Source of the DNA: Thermotoga petrophila RKU-1
GTDB lineage: Bacteria; Thermotogota; Thermotogae; Thermotogales; Thermotogaceae
Length of the DNA: 64,000 nucleotides
Reading direction: 5' to 3'
Assembly: GCF_000016785.1 (NCBI RefSeq)
Contig: NC_009486.1
Location: forward strand, 1,116,001 to 1,180,000
How positions within the stretch are numbered: position 1 is the stretch's first letter; every line of letters starts with the position of its first letter. Under the pieces are notes generated by a model. That model searched no databases. It had not been told where the DNA came from and saw nothing but the letters and a program-made list of their open reading frames with translations. The translations under genes and the position numbers were made by a program. Positions 6,578-14,372 of the stretch are shown one piece after another.

Positions 6578-7452
6578 TTCCTATCACCACCGAAAGCCAC
6601 GCAGAGTGGAGACGTCTGAACAAAATAGTCCTCTATCTTCAACACCCCACGGCCCTCTGGCTTGAAAGGAAACACAGAACCTTCCTGAACATAGAAAAGC
6701 TCTTTCTTCACTTTCATTTCGTCGTGTTTCACGCCACGTCTTTTTATTATCCTGTAGTATCCTTCGTTTATCTTTGCTCTCTCTTCTGTGGAAGGCACAA
6801 ACAGCGACAGGGTGAGATAGTACTCACCCTCTTCCGGGAAATCTGGAGCATTTTCGAACTCAGCATTGAAAAGTCCGTATCCGTAAGTTGAGTCAGCGCC
6901 TATTCCACTATCTCCAAGAGACTTGACAGCTGTTTTGAAAAGATCCTCGTATTCATCGGGAAATTCTGCCAGAAATGCTGGGGTGAACCCCTCTTTTACG
7001 AAAGCAACTTCCACAAAGTAGAGATTGGAGGAACTCGTTATCCTGTCGAGGGAATTTCTTGGAATCCTCACTATCTCCACCGGATTTTCCTTGCAGACAG
7101 CACCGCTTGCTTTCTTTATCGACTGATAATTAGCAAGCTTGTCCAGGAAAACGTAACTTGCTTTCTTCAGCTCCTTTGGACTTTCCTCATCATCTTCTTC
7201 CAACGAATAGGTGTTGTAAAGAAAAGGTTTTGGAACAAGAAGGCGATCACCGCGAACGAACAGAAGAGAAGAGACCTTCAACTTTCTCGCAAAGTCCTCG
7301 GCTTTCTCAGACCACTTGAAAGCGTGGTACACAACAGCACCGTAGATGGTATCGGAATGGATGGTGGGGAGGGTGGAATCGGTCTCGTTCCCCCTACCCA
7401 CCCTGAAACCACTTCTGAAACTCATCTTCACCAGAAGGCGCACTCCTATCAC
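6574..7452 (-). CDS. csm4: Csm4, type III-A effector subunit
   Basis: A 292-residue Cas5-group RAMP that binds the 5' handle of the crRNA and contacts Cas10. Seen: an N-terminal strand followed by SGFRVGRGNE, then IHSDTIYGAVVYHAF near residue 31 (the conserved PSDTL/HSDT-type motif), and GIGADSTYGYGLF near residue 186, a glycine-rich loop. The listed start is the GTG at 7450-7452, overlapping the csm3 stop. A second GTG three codons later (7443) is better spaced from the GGGTGAT sequence and may be the real start. It is coupled to csm3 and csm5 by four-base overlaps. Confidence 0.88.
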   Translation of the reverse strand: MIGVRLLVKMSFRSGFRVGRGNETDSTLPTIHSDTIYGAVVYHAFKWSEKAEDFARKLKVSSLLFVRGDRLLVPKPFLYNTYSLEEDDEESPKELKKASYVFLDKLANYQSIKKASGAVCKENPVEIVRIPRNSLDRITSSSNLYFVEVAFVKEGFTPAFLAEFPDEYEDLFKTAVKSLGDSGIGADSTYGYGLFNAEFENAPDFPEEGEYYLTLSLFVPSTEERAKINEGYYRIIKRRGVKHDEMKVKKELFYVQEGSVFPFKPEGRGVLKIEDYFVQTSPLCVAFGGDRK

Positions 7453-8192
7453 CCTTTCACGATTTCGGGGATGGCTTTCTTAAAGCCCTCAACACCACCT
7501 TTGACCTCTTTTTCTACGGGTGTTCCCTCTCCTTTGTAGTAATCGGCGCTCTTGAAGATCACTTTTTCTATACTGAACTTCACTTTTCCGTATCCTCTGC
7601 TTCCGTTTCCACCGAGATAGTCGTCTTCGAGAAGCTCCAGAGCTGTGGCTATATTTTCGAGGTCTTCCTTTATGTGCTTTTCGTTCTCTGCTGTGTAGAT
7701 GATCTCGAATTCAAATTCCGCACCTGCGGGAATTCTTTCAAAGCTTCTCGGATCGGCTTTACAGGTGACTCTGTCCAGTGCGTTCTCTGTTTTCCATTCC
7801 GTGTATGGAAGGTCGGTTTCCATGCTGAGGAGTTTCGTTTTCGAATCTTCCGTGAGGAACGCATCTCTGACAAGAAGGCGTGAAGGGATGTTATTTCCTT
7901 CTTTCGAGGTCGAACCAAACACCCTGCAGACTTTGCATTCCCTTTCTTCGCATTCGTGTCTTCTTACCTTGTTCCCAGATATATCCAGATTCAACAACCT
8001 TTCCATCAGGCTTCTCATCTTTCCTTTCACAGAGCTTCCGGGGATGTAGGGTTCTCCCGTGAGAGGATTTCTGATAACGGGATTGTCTATACCACCGATG
8101 TTCACACCGAGCTCCTGACCTCCGATCCTAAGACCTGTTTCCAGAATGATCTTTCCCTTTATGATGTACTTTCCGAGTATCGGCCTTTCCAC
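7449..8192 (-). CDS. csm3: Csm3, target-RNA-cleaving backbone subunit
   Basis: A 247-residue Cas7-group RAMP that forms the Csm backbone and cuts target RNA at 6-nt intervals. The expected catalytic aspartate is present: GIDNPVIRNP, D36, equivalent to D33 of characterised Csm3. Also seen are IPGSSVKGKMRSLME near residue 50, a cysteine cluster HECEERECKVC near residue 79 (zinc-binding in this family) and the glycine loop GGNGSRGYGKVKF near residue 195. GTG start with GGAGG eight bases upstream. The initiation region is nearly the same as that of csm2 upstream. Confidence 0.92.
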   Translation of the reverse strand: MERPILGKYIIKGKIILETGLRIGGQELGVNIGGIDNPVIRNPLTGEPYIPGSSVKGKMRSLMERLLNLDISGNKVRRHECEERECKVCRVFGSTSKEGNNIPSRLLVRDAFLTEDSKTKLLSMETDLPYTEWKTENALDRVTCKADPRSFERIPAGAEFEFEIIYTAENEKHIKEDLENIATALELLEDDYLGGNGSRGYGKVKFSIEKVIFKSADYYKGEGTPVEKEVKGGVEGFKKAIPEIVKG

Positions 8193-8205
8193 CGCTCATC
8201 CCTCC

Positions 8206-8628
8206 TTATCTTCTGGCTGTCCTTCTGTTGCTTTTTTCGGATTCAGAATGGAATTTGTGATACGCAAGGATTGCATCGTAGAACTTTTTGAATTTCTCAA
8301 ACTCGTCAGGAGTCTTTATCTCGTCTATGAGAGGTTCAAGTATCTCCTTCAATTCACTGATACCTTCGATATCCCTTCCAACCTGATATGCGAGAAATAT
8401 CTTCATGAAGTGAAGCTCGTTAAGGATCTCTTCGTTGAACTTCTCCGGGTTATCCCTGTAGTCCTTCTTTTTGTAGATGTAGTTGCTCCAGATTTTGGTT
8501 AAGTGACCATGAAACTTTCTGAGCTGGTTTGTCTTCAGCTTTCCAGAAAGTTCCCTTCCGATTTCCTCTGCCTTTCTCACAAGGTCCTTCAAATCTTCTT
8601 TGAGAGAAACACCCTGAGAAACTGCCAC
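8206..8628 (-). CDS. csm2: Csm2, small subunit (Cas11)
   Basis: A 140-residue, almost entirely helical, highly charged protein between cas10 and csm3, the standard place of csm2. It has the family's length and a basic ending (SNRRTARR). Csm2 forms the inner filament of the complex beside the crRNA-target duplex. GTG start with GGAGG eight bases upstream. The 18-base initiation segment (AAGGAGGGATGAGCGGTG) is the same as in front of csm3. Identity rests mainly on gene order and fold type, since Csm2 sequences are poorly conserved. Confidence 0.85.
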   Translation of the reverse strand: MAVSQGVSLKEDLKDLVRKAEEIGRELSGKLKTNQLRKFHGHLTKIWSNYIYKKKDYRDNPEKFNEEILNELHFMKIFLAYQVGRDIEGISELKEILEPLIDEIKTPDEFEKFKKFYDAILAYHKFHSESEKSNRRTARR

Positions 8629-8642
8629 CGCTCATCCCTCCT

Positions 8643-10826
8643 TCAGCTTTTTCTTGAGAGAAGATCCACAAACTGGAGGATTACATTCAAGGCGTTTTCA
8701 CCGAGGTGATCTATGTTCTCTCTCATGAGATTTGCCACTCTTTTGTCTTCGTCTTTGTTCTCCCTTGCTTCTATGTAGGCGAGGAAGGCTTTGTTCAGAG
8801 GAGACTCTTCTCTTGTGAGATTCAAAGCCTTTCTAATGACACTTCTGTCCACTTTGTCTGCTATTTCCTTCAACTCTTGATAAAAGTTGTACATTTCGAA
8901 GAAGGTGTTCCACTTTACCGCATAGTAGTTTCTGTTCGAAAATGCTATGCTGTTCTTTCCGGATCTCTTGGCAGCGCTTTCGGCTCTTTCAGACATTTCT
9001 CTTATGAGGCTCATACTCGTTTTCTCATCGGTGATCACGTATCCCGCGGAGAACGTCATGAAGTCGTTCGCTGTGAATCTTCCAAACGCCTCTCTCAACT
9101 CTTTTGCCACATCCAGAACATCATTCCATCCACCAACCAGATAGAGATCGTCTCCGCCAGAATAGATCACCATAACGTTCTTTCTTTCAACAATGCTCTC
9201 TACTCTTTCTTTGAAGAAAAAGCTCATGAGCCTTGAGAGGGTGCTGTATCTGGAAAGGGTCTTTTTCTTTAAGCCCTTGAGAAAGATCTTTCCAAGGTTG
9301 TCAACGTCAACAAGGAGGCTCGCTATTTTTTTGCCAGGTGCTTTTTCTGCGATTTTCTCGAACTCCTGTTCTTCGAAATACGTCACCACCTGTATTCTTC
9401 TGACGTTCTTTTCTTTTTCCGAGAATTCGTATATCCTTCTCAACTTGTAGCTGAAACCCTCTCCCGGTTCTCTCGAGAAATCGAATTTTCTCTTAAAAAT
9501 CTCGAACTTTCCATTCTTTCTTTCAGCAAGATACACGTGAGATTTTATGAGAAGGTCTTTTCCAAGCTCGTACATTTCCTTGCAAAAATCACAGGCGATT
9601 TCTTCTTCTCCTTCTCGAATGGAAAAGAGCCTGTCCACTCTGTTTCCACAGATTTTGCAGGTGTGGTTTCCCTTCTCCTGGATCAGATTCAAATCATCGG
9701 GGAAGATCGCTTCGAGGTCTTTTTCCGTGTACATTCTGTATTTTCTTTCGTTCAACTTTTCACCGATCTTCTTGAAAACCTCGGACATGTCTTCCACGTC
9801 TTTCACCGAAAATTCAACAGATTCGATCACAAGGTGGAGTGAAAGACCCCTATTTCTGAACCATTCGTTCAGCTCGTTTCTGATCTCTTCGAGGGCTTTC
9901 TTCACCTTCTCTGTGTTGGACAGAACAAGGTGGAAATGTCCTCCTCCTATGAAGTGAACGTTTGTCCTGTAAAAGCCTGTTTTATCAAGAATCTCATCCA
10001 CAACGACTTCCTGGAGAATTTCTATGAAGAAACTCCTTCCTCTGTAGGATCTGAGAGCTCCTTTTGAAGAGACGTTGGCAATAAAATTCTGTATCCCGGA
10101 GACATCTCCCCCAACAAGTAGGAAGGGTTTCACGTTGGAATTCTCAAAGTGTGATTTCATCTCCTGGTAGGATTCAAATTTGAGGTCGTTTTCCTTTGCG
10201 TAGTCATAGAGCGAGAGAGCAAGCATAGCCGTGACCTTCAGATGGTCGTAGAGCGATATATCCATGTCTCCTTCCACTCTTGTTTCCTGAGGAATGAACG
10301 AGAAGTACTTGTAAGTGAGAAAATTCACATCATCTGGTGTGGGAAAAATCTCCTGAACGTCTTCTGGTGTGGGAGAAATCTTCTGAGCGTCTTCGACAAA
10401 TCTCCTGTAGAGATCCTCGTAGGTTTTCTGATCTTCTTTCATGTCCTTTACCGCTTCCACCACTTCGTTGGCTGGTTTCGCAGGAAAGTAAGTGACGTTT
10501 CTGGAAGATTCCCCCTCCGGGATCTTTGAGAGGAGGTTGTCCATTCTTCGAAGTTCTTCAAACTTCTGACCTTCGGTCATTCTTTCTTTGCTCGAGAGGT
10601 TGTCTGCGAAGCACACGTACCAAACCTTTTCGTTTTCCAAACTTTTTTTCAGAAGATCCTTTTCATGATGGTAGTGAATGTAATCCTGAATTACAGCGAA
10701 TTTCTTCACTTTGTTTGTAAAATCGTATCCGGCAATCTGATGTCTTCTGTCATCCCCCGCCCTTCTTACGACCTTTCCTATGTCGTGCAGGAGAGCCCCA
10801 ACAACAAGCTCTTCTCTGTCTTTCAA
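8643..10826 (-). CDS. cas10: Cas10 (Csm1), HD nuclease and cyclic oligoadenylate synthase
   Basis: A 727-residue Csm1. It starts at the TTG at 10824-10826: GGAGGTGA lies seven bases upstream, while an upstream in-frame TTG (10850) has no site. Domains: HD nuclease with ALLHDIGK (H14-D15), the residues that cut single-stranded DNA; a first cyclase-like Palm domain; a four-cysteine zinc site (CKIC at about 390-393, CDFC at about 412-415); and an active second Palm domain with IYSGGDDLYLV (GGDD about 557-560), which makes cyclic oligoadenylates. Both activities look intact. An in-frame 30-bp tandem duplication (10327-10386) gives ISPTPEDVQ/IFPTPDDVN in the linker near residue 150. It should activate the CARF protein encoded just upstream. 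Confidence 0.95.
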   Translation of the reverse strand: MKDREELVVGALLHDIGKVVRRAGDDRRHQIAGYDFTNKVKKFAVIQDYIHYHHEKDLLKKSLENEKVWYVCFADNLSSKERMTEGQKFEELRRMDNLLSKIPEGESSRNVTYFPAKPANEVVEAVKDMKEDQKTYEDLYRRFVEDAQKISPTPEDVQEIFPTPDDVNFLTYKYFSFIPQETRVEGDMDISLYDHLKVTAMLALSLYDYAKENDLKFESYQEMKSHFENSNVKPFLLVGGDVSGIQNFIANVSSKGALRSYRGRSFFIEILQEVVVDEILDKTGFYRTNVHFIGGGHFHLVLSNTEKVKKALEEIRNELNEWFRNRGLSLHLVIESVEFSVKDVEDMSEVFKKIGEKLNERKYRMYTEKDLEAIFPDDLNLIQEKGNHTCKICGNRVDRLFSIREGEEEIACDFCKEMYELGKDLLIKSHVYLAERKNGKFEIFKRKFDFSREPGEGFSYKLRRIYEFSEKEKNVRRIQVVTYFEEQEFEKIAEKAPGKKIASLLVDVDNLGKIFLKGLKKKTLSRYSTLSRLMSFFFKERVESIVERKNVMVIYSGGDDLYLVGGWNDVLDVAKELREAFGRFTANDFMTFSAGYVITDEKTSMSLIREMSERAESAAKRSGKNSIAFSNRNYYAVKWNTFFEMYNFYQELKEIADKVDRSVIRKALNLTREESPLNKAFLAYIEARENKDEDKRVANLMRENIDHLGENALNVILQFVDLLSRKS

Positions 10827-10846
10827 GGAAGATTCACCTCCTTTTC

Positions 10847-12493
10847 TCAATCAAGCTCCAGAATTTCACCCACCACAAAAGGATTCTGCTTTTGTTCTTC
10901 GTAAGTTCTCTTGTCCACAGCCAGGATAGTTTTTACTTTTCTTCCGTATCTAATTTGATTTTTGGCACGCTCGATAACGTACGTAAGAAAAGTGGTTCCA
11001 CCTGTGAGATTGACGATCACTTCATCCACGTCAGAAAGATGTTCTTTGATTTCGGATACTACTCGATCTATTTCACTTACACCCATAAAAGGGTCTTCGA
11101 GAAGGATTACCCTAAATTCACCCTTGAATTCAGCTTTCTCCAGAATTTCTGAAAGAATAGCTTTTCCCTGTTTTGAAGTTATAACCAGGAGTAGATCAGG
11201 TGAAATTTTTTTCAGAACGGTGTATAAAGCACCTTTTGTCGTACCGAGAGGAGTGAGAAGAGCTCTTTTTCTGTTTCGCTGAGTTTTTCTCGCAGACTCC
11301 AGAAGTTGTTCCGGTGGGGTTTGAACAAGCACTTTCAGGTGATCTTCTATCTTTTTCAAGGAGGGAAGCTGGAGTTTGTTGAATCCGAAATGAGCAACAT
11401 GATTTCTTGCCTGAAGGATGGTATCATAACCAAACGTTGAAATGCTCACAGACTCTCTAACATTTCTATCCAAGAAATCACTCTTCTCCCCTCCAGACAT
11501 CAAATAGACATTTATAAGATATTCTCTTGCCAAACGAAGAGCCATACCTAAATCTCCTGTTTGAAGATAGAAATCCAGTAACTCTTTTTCAGATTCCAAT
11601 TCTTTTTCGCTCAGTTCAAAATTCTCCGATTTCACATGTATAACCCTGTATCTTTTTTCGATCCCATCTAAGAGAGCCGCAATCTCTGGAACAAAAACCT
11701 CCGTCTCCTCTCTTATTCTTGCTTTATTTCTATCAATAAAATTGAAGAAATTGGTTAAATTCTTCCTTATGGCTACTATGGATCCAAGACGTATAGAAGA
11801 CGAAAGATCCTGAAGTTTTTGAGACATAGAACCAAGTAGCTTTGGTTTTTTCGAACTTTGACTTCCCCTGTATATTTCTTCATTTCTCTTTTTTATCAAA
11901 TCAGCGAGTTCTTTCGCATATCCATACTCTTTGAACAATCGAACAGCATATATCCATGATGTAGCTTTAGTTAGTGGGGTCAAATCTTCGCACTCTGTTA
12001 CTTTTGTTTCTTTATTGTACTTGCCGTAAACTACACTCACATTAACATCTTTGGCCTCTTTAAGGTACAGGGCTACTACACTTGCCATCAATGGAATACT
12101 TCTGAACGAATGAGTAACATCCAGTATAACTCTGTCCCCTTTTTCCAAATTTTCCACAAGGTTTCTTACAAGGAAATTCATCAAGTTACTTGAAGATTCT
12201 CCTCCCGGTATTTCAAAATCTTTAATATTTGATCTCAAAAATCTTCTACACTCATCCCACGTTTTGCTTTCTTTCACGGTTTTTGTTAGGAAGAATATTG
12301 TTTCAACTTGTTTTCCTATATGATTCAGATATTCAATTAATGCTAGTGGGAAAATCGATTGTCGAACACAAAAAATATCCTGGGAGCCATCATTTTTTAC
12401 ACACCCATCTAAAAGATTCCCATTAATTTTAATTTCGCTTTCTTCATACTTACCCAGGCCAAGAAATGTAACCAGTTTTACAACTTCGCCCAT
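10847..12493 (-). CDS. CARF-HEPN-CARF ancillary effector (Csx1/Csx2, TM1812-type)
   Basis: A 548-residue protein with three visible parts. Residues 1 to about 190 are a Csx2/TM1812-type CARF domain with ILDVTHSFRS (D125, H128), the DxTH ligand-binding motif. Residues about 190-395 are helical and carry RNHVAH (R363-x4-H368), the HEPN ribonuclease motif. Residues about 408-548 form a second, different Rossmann-like domain starting LLTPLGTTKGAL and containing VNLTGGTTF (about 495-501), the pattern of Csm6/Card1-type CARF domains. Most Csx1 proteins have only one CARF domain. Start chosen at the ATG at 12491-12493, which follows AGAGGTGA; an ATG five codons earlier overlaps the cas6 stop. It should be an RNase triggered by the cyclic oligoadenylate made by Cas10. 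The extra domain could sense a second ligand or degrade the signal. Confidence 0.88.
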   Translation of the reverse strand: MGEVVKLVTFLGLGKYEESEIKINGNLLDGCVKNDGSQDIFCVRQSIFPLALIEYLNHIGKQVETIFFLTKTVKESKTWDECRRFLRSNIKDFEIPGGESSSNLMNFLVRNLVENLEKGDRVILDVTHSFRSIPLMASVVALYLKEAKDVNVSVVYGKYNKETKVTECEDLTPLTKATSWIYAVRLFKEYGYAKELADLIKKRNEEIYRGSQSSKKPKLLGSMSQKLQDLSSSIRLGSIVAIRKNLTNFFNFIDRNKARIREETEVFVPEIAALLDGIEKRYRVIHVKSENFELSEKELESEKELLDFYLQTGDLGMALRLAREYLINVYLMSGGEKSDFLDRNVRESVSISTFGYDTILQARNHVAHFGFNKLQLPSLKKIEDHLKVLVQTPPEQLLESARKTQRNRKRALLTPLGTTKGALYTVLKKISPDLLLVITSKQGKAILSEILEKAEFKGEFRVILLEDPFMGVSEIDRVVSEIKEHLSDVDEVIVNLTGGTTFLTYVIERAKNQIRYGRKVKTILAVDKRTYEEQKQNPFVVGEILELD

Positions 12494-12497
12494 CTTT

Positions 12498-13250
12498 TCA
12501 CCTCTCATATTTTTTCAAGGCTACCATTCCGAATCCCATGCTATTTTTCTCTCCAAAACCCGCTTCATAGCCGATCTCTACAAGTTTTTTCTCGCCCCTG
12601 ATTTTGAACGGGAAAACCACAGCTCTGACGAACGCGTTTTTCAATTTGATCCTTTTGGTTATCCGCTGACGTGATTTGATGTAATCCCAATCGGGAATGA
12701 CTTCAACAGTGCCTTCTGGTTCTTTTCCGTAAAAAGCCCTGTACTTCTTCACAAGATTCTTTCTGAAAACTTCGTAGAACTCTTCTTCTTCCGGATGAAG
12801 ATACCTGTGGTAAAGCTTTCCGTTGTTTTCTTCTGGTACACTGACCACAAGTGGTGACAGCATGACAAAGTGGTACTCCGACTGATCAGGAAGAGAATTT
12901 TCGATGTCAATGGATTTCACGATGAACTCTGTTTTTTCCACCCTGATCACGGGATCTTCGGAGAGAGAAGAAAACATGTACCTGACGAACTCAATAACTG
13001 GTGATGAGATGTACCACCACCCCTTTCCTGGAAATATTAATATTTTCTCACCGCTGACTCTGGAATTTTCAAAGAAAAGTTGTGAAAAAGTGAAAAACTT
13101 GAACCTCTTCCCATAACCCTTCTCGTGAAGGAATCTGGCAAAGTTTTCATTCTGTGAAGCCAATCTCTTGTAGATGAAAGAAGAAAGAAAATAGTTGTAA
13201 TTCAACGGAATAGTGCTTTCCATCGCCTGAAAAGAAACTTTCAATCTCAT
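12498..13250 (-). CDS. cas6: Cas6 endoribonuclease heading the type III-A operon
   Basis: A 250-residue Cas6. It has the typical opening (MRLKVSFQAMESTIPLNYNY, followed by FLSSFIYKRL), an HP-containing middle and the glycine-rich C-terminal loop GFGEKNSMGFGMVALKK. It cleaves repeat RNA to make crRNAs for the Csm complex. ATG start with GGGGG eight bases upstream. It is the first gene of the operon. Its sequence is clearly different from the Cas6 at 1624-2349, so two Cas6 types coexist with a single repeat family. Confidence 0.92.
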   Translation of the reverse strand: MRLKVSFQAMESTIPLNYNYFLSSFIYKRLASQNENFARFLHEKGYGKRFKFFTFSQLFFENSRVSGEKILIFPGKGWWYISSPVIEFVRYMFSSLSEDPVIRVEKTEFIVKSIDIENSLPDQSEYHFVMLSPLVVSVPEENNGKLYHRYLHPEEEEFYEVFRKNLVKKYRAFYGKEPEGTVEVIPDWDYIKSRQRITKRIKLKNAFVRAVVFPFKIRGEKKLVEIGYEAGFGEKNSMGFGMVALKKYER

Positions 13251-13397: not shown

Positions 13398-13427
13398 TTG
13401 ACCAAATATATGCAAAAAGTATATAAT
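13398..13427 (+). promoter_or_regulatory. Promoter for the peptide-ferredoxin-NifX operon
   Basis: TTGACC (13398-13403), 18-bp spacer, TATAAT (13422-13427). Transcription should start near 13434, so the SD of the tiny peptide gene would lie at the very 5' end of the mRNA. The -35 is half of an inverted repeat: TGGTCAA at 13360-13366 and TTGACCA at 13398-13404. Confidence 0.7.
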
Positions 13428-13445
13428 TTCCCTGAGGTGAGAGTC

Positions 13446-13484
13446 GTGAGAAAGGTCTGTCAGTGCTGGTGGTGCGGGTATTGA
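13446..13484 (+). CDS. 12-residue Cys/Trp peptide (possible leader peptide)
   Basis: A GTG-started frame encoding MRKVCQCWWCGY and then a stop. GAGGTGA lies six bases upstream, directly after a strong promoter. Three of 12 residues are cysteine and two are adjacent tryptophans. It ends 48 bases before the ferredoxin gene, and the two share the promoter. It could be a regulatory leader peptide sensing Cys or Trp supply or metal status, a metal- or cluster-binding micropeptide, or a chance frame. The SD and start quality argue against chance; function is unknown. Confidence 0.5.
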   Translation: MRKVCQCWWCGY

Positions 13485-13532
13485 TGTCCCCTTCCCTTAC
13501 CACGAAGAAGAACAAAACGGGGAGGGAAGACT

Positions 13533-13952
13533 ATGGCAGAGGCAAAGAACGCTCCGTTGATTGGAAAGGATGCCCTTGGTCGAGAAGTTCGTGATCTTTC
13601 TAAAGTCCCATGGTGGGGCGTGGACAGGAAAGAAATAGAGTGGTACCCAACCATCGATTACGATAAATGTGTGACATGTGGAATCTGCTTTGTAACCTGC
13701 GGAAGACGAGTGTTCGACTTCGACAAAAAAGAGGGAAAAGTGATAGTGGCGCGTCCTTACAACTGTATGGTCGCGTGTCAGACGTGCATGAACCTTTGTC
13801 CAACAGGAGCGATAAGTTTCCCCGATGCTTCCTATATAAAAAAGCTGGTTGCGCAGAACAAAATTGTGAAGAAAGCCTTTGAGATAATAAAGCCTCTCCT
13901 GGCCGAAGATCATCTGTCACCAAAGGAAACGGAAACCAAACCCGAACCCTGA
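13533..13952 (+). CDS. Ferredoxin-like protein with two [4Fe-4S] motifs
   Basis: A 139-residue protein. After a 40-residue N-terminal extension ([13 protein letters not shown]) come two cysteine clusters: [11 protein letters not shown] near residues 46-56 and [13 protein letters not shown] near residues 78-90, followed by TGAISFPD. The first cluster ends CGRRV where many ferredoxins have CP. It is probably a cytoplasmic electron carrier or the partner of the NifX-like protein encoded 14 bases downstream. SD GGGGAGGG precedes the ATG. It is co-transcribed with the tiny peptide upstream. Confidence 0.85.
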
Positions 13953-13966
13953 GAGGAGGTGAGACA

Positions 13967-14341
13967 ATGATCATAGCCATTCCCGTCTCCGAAAACAGAG
14001 GAAAAGATTCTCCCATATCGGAACACTTCGGTAGGGCACCGTATTTCGCATTCGTGAAGGTGAAGGACAACACGATAGTGGATATCAGTGTTGAAGAAAA
14101 CCCTCTTGCACAGGATCATGTTCACGGTGCTGTCCCAAATTTTGTGAAAGAAAAAGGAGCGGAGCTGGTGATAGTGAGAGGTATCGGAAGAAGAGCCATC
14201 GCTGCCTTCGAAGCCATGGGTGTAAAAGTGATAAGGGGTGCATCTGGAACGGTGAAAGAAGTGGTGAACCAGTATCTCTCAGGACAACTGAAAGATTCAG
14301 ACTACGAAGTTCACGATCATCACCACCACGAACATCACTGA
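13967..14341 (+). CDS. NifX/NifB-C-terminal-like metal cofactor protein (Fe-Mo cofactor family)
   Basis: A 124-residue member of the dinitrogenase iron-molybdenum cofactor family (as T. maritima TM1816, from memory). Family features: IAIPVSEN at the start, [14 protein letters not shown] near residue 18, and [25 protein letters not shown] in the middle. These proteins bind metal clusters. A histidine-rich tail (HDHHHHEHH) adds a likely metal site. No nitrogenase genes are in the window, so a role in nitrogen fixation is unlikely; handling of another Fe-S or metal cofactor is more plausible. AGGAGGTGAGACA precedes the ATG. Transcription ends at the hairpin just downstream. Confidence 0.88.
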
Positions 14342-14348
14342 AAAACAA

Positions 14349-14372
14349 AGAGGGGCTTTGGCCCCTCTTTTT
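14349..14372. terminator. Rho-independent terminator between nifX-like gene and valS
   Basis: Stem AGAGGGGC/GCCCCTCT with a four-base loop, followed by Ts on the forward strand and, reading in reverse, by a T-containing tract. The two genes converge here, so it may serve both. Confidence 0.85.

Follow-up and report, generated by a model that had tools for sequence, protein, structure and literature searches.

What is a reading frame of twelve codons doing between a strong promoter and a pair of iron-sulfur genes in Thermotoga petrophila RKU-1? The frame lies in the window analysed here, a stretch of 64,000 nucleotides from a genome of 1.82 Mb, and the initial annotation had offered two readings of it: a leader peptide that couples expression of the operon to Cys or Trp charging or to Fe-S status, or a minimal metal-binding peptide.

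Organisation of the locus

The Shine-Dalgarno sequence (SD), GTG start, stop codon and strong promoter of that annotation are all confirmed (Table 1), as is the gap between the leader and the ferredoxin and NifX-like pair, which is exactly 48 bases from the leader TGA to the ferredoxin ATG. The transcript is expected to start at about 13434, and the leader is thus predicted to be the first element translated. A promoter of the form TTGACA-17/18-TATAAT occupies the equivalent place in other Thermotoga genomes (L004, L005 and L009). The NifX-like protein matches the solved structures 1t3v and 1o13 over its full length; these we take to be structures of TM1816 of Thermotoga maritima. Neither a terminator nor an antiterminator was found between the leader and the ferredoxin, the only terminator being the one at 14347, and attenuation based on a terminator was therefore dropped.

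Table 1. Features of the leader locus, in window coordinates.
Feature	Position	Strand	Basis or remark
Sigma-70-type promoter, TTGACC-18-TATAAT	13398-13427	+	11 of 12 consensus positions
Leader SD, GAGGTGA	13434-13440	+	Sequence; GAGGTG retained in L004, L005 and L009
Leader ORF MRKVCQCWWCGY, (M)RKVCQCWWCGY, 12 residues	13446-13484	+	GTG start at 13446, TGA at 13482-13484
Conserved leader core, V4-C5-x-C7-W8-W9-x-G11	within 13446-13484	+	Comparison
Codons C5 to G11, CxCWWxG	13458-13478	+	Proposed sensor (CxC) and arrest (WWxG) element
Anti-SD arm	13486-13496	+	Begins 19 nt past the first base of Trp8 (13467)
SD-containing arm GGGGAGGGAAGAC	13519-13531	+	Pairs with 13486-13496; MFE fold, covariation
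2[4Fe-4S] ferredoxin (TM1815 type)	13533-13952	+	Predicted controlled gene 1
NifX/NifB-like FeMo-cofactor-binding fold protein	13967-14341	+	Predicted controlled gene 2; PF02579, 2.7e-25
Terminator closing the operon	14347-14370	+	

Divergent from the leader promoter, the minus strand carries a set of type III-A CRISPR genes (7449-13250) encoding Csm3, Csm2, Cas10/Csm1, a 553-aa CARF-HEPN-CARF effector (Csx1/Csm6-type) and Cas6. Downstream of the ferredoxin/NifX operon and beyond valS, also on the minus strand, is a split pair of chromate (CHR) transporter halves (PF02417, 17001-18020), in a gene order that is shared with other Thermotoga genomes.

Conservation of the peptide upstream of ferredoxin orthologs

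The ferredoxin protein, rather than the peptide, served as the query for orthologs in 103 genomes of the class, and the DNA upstream of each was then inspected. The near-identical relatives G091 and G093 retain the leader, and six further Thermotogota genomes carry a version of it in the equivalent position: MRKVCRCWWCGH in G096, MRKVCWCWWCGY in G092 and G094, MRKICHCWWCGH in G002, (TTG)IRKVCFCWWHGD in G101 and MRRVCQCWWRGH in G099. The upstream DNA of the orthologs L006 and L011-L015, and of the degenerate L016, holds no leader. L016 is a Thermotoga ortholog (G095) with a stop codon near its start, and here gene and leader seem to have decayed together.

Codons were compared across seven sequences (the window, G096, G092, G094, G002, G101 and G099). 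The residues V/I, C, C, W, W and G are retained throughout, while the third base of the Val, Cys, Gly and Lys codons varies freely. Compared pairwise with the window, every relative gives a pS of about 0.9-1.3 and a pN of 0.07-0.2; the overall pN/pS is 0.17 with synonymous sites near saturation, which argues that it is the peptide, rather than the RNA, that is under selection. On this comparative evidence, the leader at 13446-13484 is a translated peptide under selection, far beyond chance, and its conserved core is [V/I]-C-x-C-W-W-x-G, in which the Val and Gly are conserved as strongly as the Cys. The motif had first been described as CxC-WW-C, with conservation of its Cys and Trp codons in related genomes proposed as the check. 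The first two Cys and both Trp pass that check, but the third Cys does not: its position holds C, H or R in the seven-sequence set, placing it outside the core, and H, R, D, V or K replaces it in other members.

Recurrence of the core ahead of other genes

Further members were sought with DNA pattern searches for the core, and chance matches were removed by genomic context. The leader MKIKRARVCKCWWDGWGISSSENSDREKNNRP of G021 (L037) lies ahead of a TauE/SafE transporter (PF01925, 5.7e-51); it is 32 residues long, with no stop at the usual place, and matches nothing in Pfam or NCBIfam. In G083 (L186), MKKRKVCNCWWVGH is immediately ahead of a SLAC1/TDT gene (1.1e-74), and in G022 (L148) MRNHTHVCKCWWDGWK is followed by a 56-aa ORF and then a SLAC1/TDT gene (PF03595, 1.3e-75). 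The 56-aa ORF belongs to no Pfam family, and it is this ORF whose SD is hidden by the hairpin described below. The leader (TTG)KFVCHCWWVG of G008 (L194/L218) sits inside an ArsR-ArsC-ACR3 operon, ahead of a ferredoxin. The whole cluster (6183-10233 of L218) reads ArsR-ArsC-ACR3-[leader]-ferredoxin-118-aa protein-Pyr_redox (pyridine-nucleotide-disulfide oxidoreductase), the 118-aa protein having no Pfam match. One member, in two copies, falls outside the Thermotogota: in Ca. Tenebribacter davisii, MRRNIKKRNVCYCWWHGK (L149) precedes a rhodanese (1e-8) and TauE (5e-43), and MKKKICHCWWKGK (L150) precedes TauE (2e-46). Among the ferredoxin-linked members, the ferredoxin of G101 adjoins TusA, DsrE, ArsR-TusA and ArsP genes. 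Separately, distant ferredoxin homologs that lack the leader (L017-L030) often follow ArsR-like regulators, arsenate-reductase-like or ArsP-like genes when their neighbourhoods are read by eye, hinting at a role of these ferredoxin relatives in arsenic or thiol stress.

Most of the members without a ferredoxin were found with a pattern requiring CxCWWxG, and conservation of the core is thus independent evidence for the ferredoxin set only. A scan of the whole collection with a pattern containing GGNR, which requires a purine right after the Gly codon and so misses most Thermotoga-type leaders, gave 61 matches; the leaders among them are L054 and L070, and the others are chance matches, mostly within long ORFs. 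Looser searches of the Thermotogota added L186 and L194, while L187-L192 and other matches were dropped on genomic context. Nothing beyond the Tenebribacter pair was found in 125 genomes of its phylum, and no convincing member in 348 genomes of the phylum of a Lachnospiraceae genome or, with a stricter pattern, in 299 genomes of the Nitrosomonas phylum, where the single match is attributed to chance. With samples of two large phyla empty, the leader family looks rare and patchy within the bounds of the patterns used. A known cis-regulatory RNA was dropped as an explanation, as Rfam gave no match above the gathering score and only two sub-threshold chance matches. Literature searches returned no such peptide motif and nothing relevant on the regulation of TM1815/TM1816.

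An anti-SD hairpin at a fixed distance

In nine of twelve independent lineages, the window included, the SD of the next gene is paired to an upstream arm that is usually pyrimidine-rich. Counted from the first base of the Trp-Trp codons, this arm begins at about +17 to +24 nt in these nine. The sequences of the two arms vary widely from lineage to lineage while the pairing is retained, as in the helix arms CUCCCUCCCUA/UAGGGAGGGAG of G096, CCCUCCUCU/AGAGGAGGG of G101, AGCUCCUCC/GGAGGAGCU of G021, UGUAUCCCUCC/GGAGGGAUACA of G083 and UUUUUCUC/GAGAAAAA of Tenebribacter. Pairing at the arm position has a combined p of 5e-12 against shuffled arms and of 4e-13 when other windows from these loci serve as the control. 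In the covariation analysis, 10 of 11 helix pairs are altered on both sides and none of 500 shuffles reaches the score; the helices were chosen per sequence, and this result is to be read beside the control in which the helix was re-optimised on each shuffle (combined p 1.2e-8).

Folding the RNA of the region around 13430-13532, as had been suggested, does yield an SD hairpin (13482-13544; MFE -15.8 kcal/mol at 37 °C), but one that is ordinary against whole-sequence shuffles (z -1.0), and the case for the hairpin accordingly rests on the comparison between lineages. Thermotoga of this type are expected to live at about 80 °C. In the MFE fold of G022, part of the arm is engaged preferentially in a different, local structure. 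In the remaining three lineages (G002, G099 and G008) the peptide is present and the anti-SD arm was not found, suggesting that the output there may be a different one, or that the hairpin is not always needed. The leader stops 1-4 nt before the arm in most lineages. The G021 leader is without a stop there and continues for 19 codons through the arm, and its WW-to-arm distance is nevertheless unchanged.

Proposed translation attenuation and its alternatives

That the peptide controls its operon, as the initial annotation had supposed of a leader, is well supported by its conservation, its codon pattern, its fixed geometry to an SD-hiding hairpin and its recurrence ahead of unrelated operons. 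Since the arm base-pairs with the SD at a fixed distance, the default state is predicted to be one in which ribosomes have no access to the next gene. Short translated leaders with an SD of their own lie upstream of the predicted controlled genes, a hairpin sequesters the SD of the next gene in the nine lineages above, and the arm could be covered from a late leader codon, the last being a matter of geometry, with a ribosome footprint of the usual length assumed. This geometry and the unchanged distance in G021, which is expected if the peptide and not the stop codon sets the arrest point, lead us to propose attenuation of the ErmC/Cat type through a putative nascent-chain arrest at WWxG, with the leader peptide as the sensor half of the attenuator (probability about 0.6). 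Under a specific condition the ribosome would arrest once the WWxG end of the nascent chain has reached the catalytic centre, the P site then probably holding codon 11 or 12. The leading edge of a ribosome is usually about 15-16 nt downstream of the P-site codon. That of the arrested ribosome would then fall at about 13491-13495, covering 13486-13494, and the covered arm would free the SD of the ferredoxin-NifX pair. If the attenuator reading is true, it would give a first handle on what this unexplained pair (TM1815/TM1816 type) responds to.

Several other explanations have to be weighed against translation attenuation. The charging mechanism suggested in the initial annotation, in which a shortage of Cys-tRNA (or Trp-tRNA) would stall the ribosome at Cys or Trp codons so that the RNA refolds and the operon switches, could explain two or three Cys and two Trp among 12 codons and the sulfur-linked genes downstream in several relatives, and it has precedents in the Cys-codon leaders of cysS in Rhodobacterales (PMC8632094) and, reportedly, in the mycobacterial polycysteine leaders. 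We nevertheless regard it as unlikely. It finds no terminator or antiterminator between leader and gene, and the conserved Cys and Trp codons end at 13472 and are not placed where it would require them: a ribosome waiting at C5, C7, W8 or W9 would, with a footprint of the usual length, reach only about 13483 and thus halt too early to cover the arm. Moreover, V and G, which are neither Cys nor Trp, are conserved like the Cys, the whole core is kept, and the number of Cys is fixed at two in most lineages rather than expanded. Plain translational coupling, in which ribosomes finishing the leader would transiently open the hairpin and the peptide sequence would be incidental, agrees with the position of the leader end just before the arm in most lineages and with the overlap, in G101, between the leader start and the stop codon of the gene before it. 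Coupling is made decidedly unlikely by the strong purifying selection that the peptide itself is under, and by the G021 leader, which runs past this point with its WW-to-arm distance intact.

A free-standing minimal metal- or Fe-S-binding peptide (or chaperone) acting in trans is very improbable as the main function. Its CxC...C resembles a set of metal ligands and Fe-S genes adjoin it, but the third Cys is not conserved, and the distance to the SD hairpin is constant among entirely different neighbouring genes, a spacing for which a trans product would have no need; an additional role in trans is compatible with the data and leaves the fixed distance to the arm unexplained. Readthrough of the UGA, which would extend the ferredoxin at its N terminus by the peptide, might be read from the window, where no stop interrupts the 16 codons past the TGA and their frame is that of the ferredoxin ATG. 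It is refuted by the relatives, which stop with TAA or TGA and whose WW-to-ATG spacing (66, 71, 74, 64 etc.) does not keep the frame. A chance ORF, for which the length of only 12 codons might speak, is refuted in turn by conservation of the peptide, and not of synonymous codons, in different families within the phylum and outside it.

What the cysteine pair may sense

More tentatively, the arrest proposed for the attenuator might be conditioned by the two invariant CxC thiols, through reaction with, or binding of, a thiophilic ligand in the upper part of the exit tunnel. Reactive sulfur species (sulfide, polysulfide, sulfite) are the favoured ligand, because leaders in the relatives precede TauE/SafE exporters, a rhodanese-TauE operon and SLAC1/TDT channels, and because the BigR sulfide regulon (PMC5823870) likewise pairs a rhodanese-type sulfurtransferase with TauE. 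The main alternative is arsenite or another soft metal or metalloid, a reading favoured by the ars operon of G008 and the ArsP neighbours; the two invariant thiols would suit either. Antibiotics, Trp, arginine or polyamines, and the force of protein export are the signals to which known arrest peptides respond, together with copper in the case of CruR. It is possible, though we give it less than an even chance, that the CxCWWxG leaders make up a new class of arrest peptide. Reactive sulfur (or arsenite or a soft metal) would then be sensed directly by the two cysteines while they sit in the exit tunnel, and genes for sulfur-anion export, sulfurtransferase and Fe-S proteins would be switched on. 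If so, the ribosome itself would be the thiol sensor, and a portable one: 11-13 residues with an invariant CxCWWxG would have passed from operon to operon and from phylum to phylum, and an SD hairpin at constant spacing would have travelled with them. It would also offer a compact system for studying how a tunnel-bound cysteine pair controls peptide-bond formation.

Relation to known systems

The closest architecture is that of the ErmC/ErmB/CatA86-type attenuators (e.g. ermBL, PMC8274638), which have a short leader with its own SD, an SD-hiding hairpin and an arm that can be covered by a late-stalled ribosome. The CxCWWxG leaders differ in carrying another peptide and in having sulfur, metalloid and Fe-S functions downstream rather than an antibiotic-resistance gene. 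For ligand sensing by a Cys pair in a nascent chain, the precedent is CruR (DUF2946, PMC9426467), which is also an upstream ORF. There a thiophilic ligand is sensed by the Cys pair and the operon is controlled through ribosome arrest, as is proposed here. CruR responds to copper, exceeds 140 residues, combines CXXC with a RAPP arrest motif at its C terminus and works through Rho (PMC9426467), whereas the CxCWWxG leaders have 11-32 residues, CxC, no RAPP and an SD hairpin.

Short Cys-containing leaders ahead of sulfur-related genes are also known from the uORFC-8-2 cysS leaders of Rhodobacterales (PMC8632094) and from the mycobacterial polycysteine leaders. The former have tandem Cys codons and an intrinsic terminator, and neither CxCWWxG nor an SD hairpin at a fixed distance; the latter likewise have tandem Cys codons and are not known to have CxCWWxG or such a hairpin. 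At the level of gene content, the rhodanese and TauE set of L149 resembles the genes under the Cys-based sulfide and persulfide sensors BigR and CstR (PMC5823870). Those are DNA-binding repressors, whereas the control proposed for the CxCWWxG leaders would be exerted at translation through the nascent peptide.
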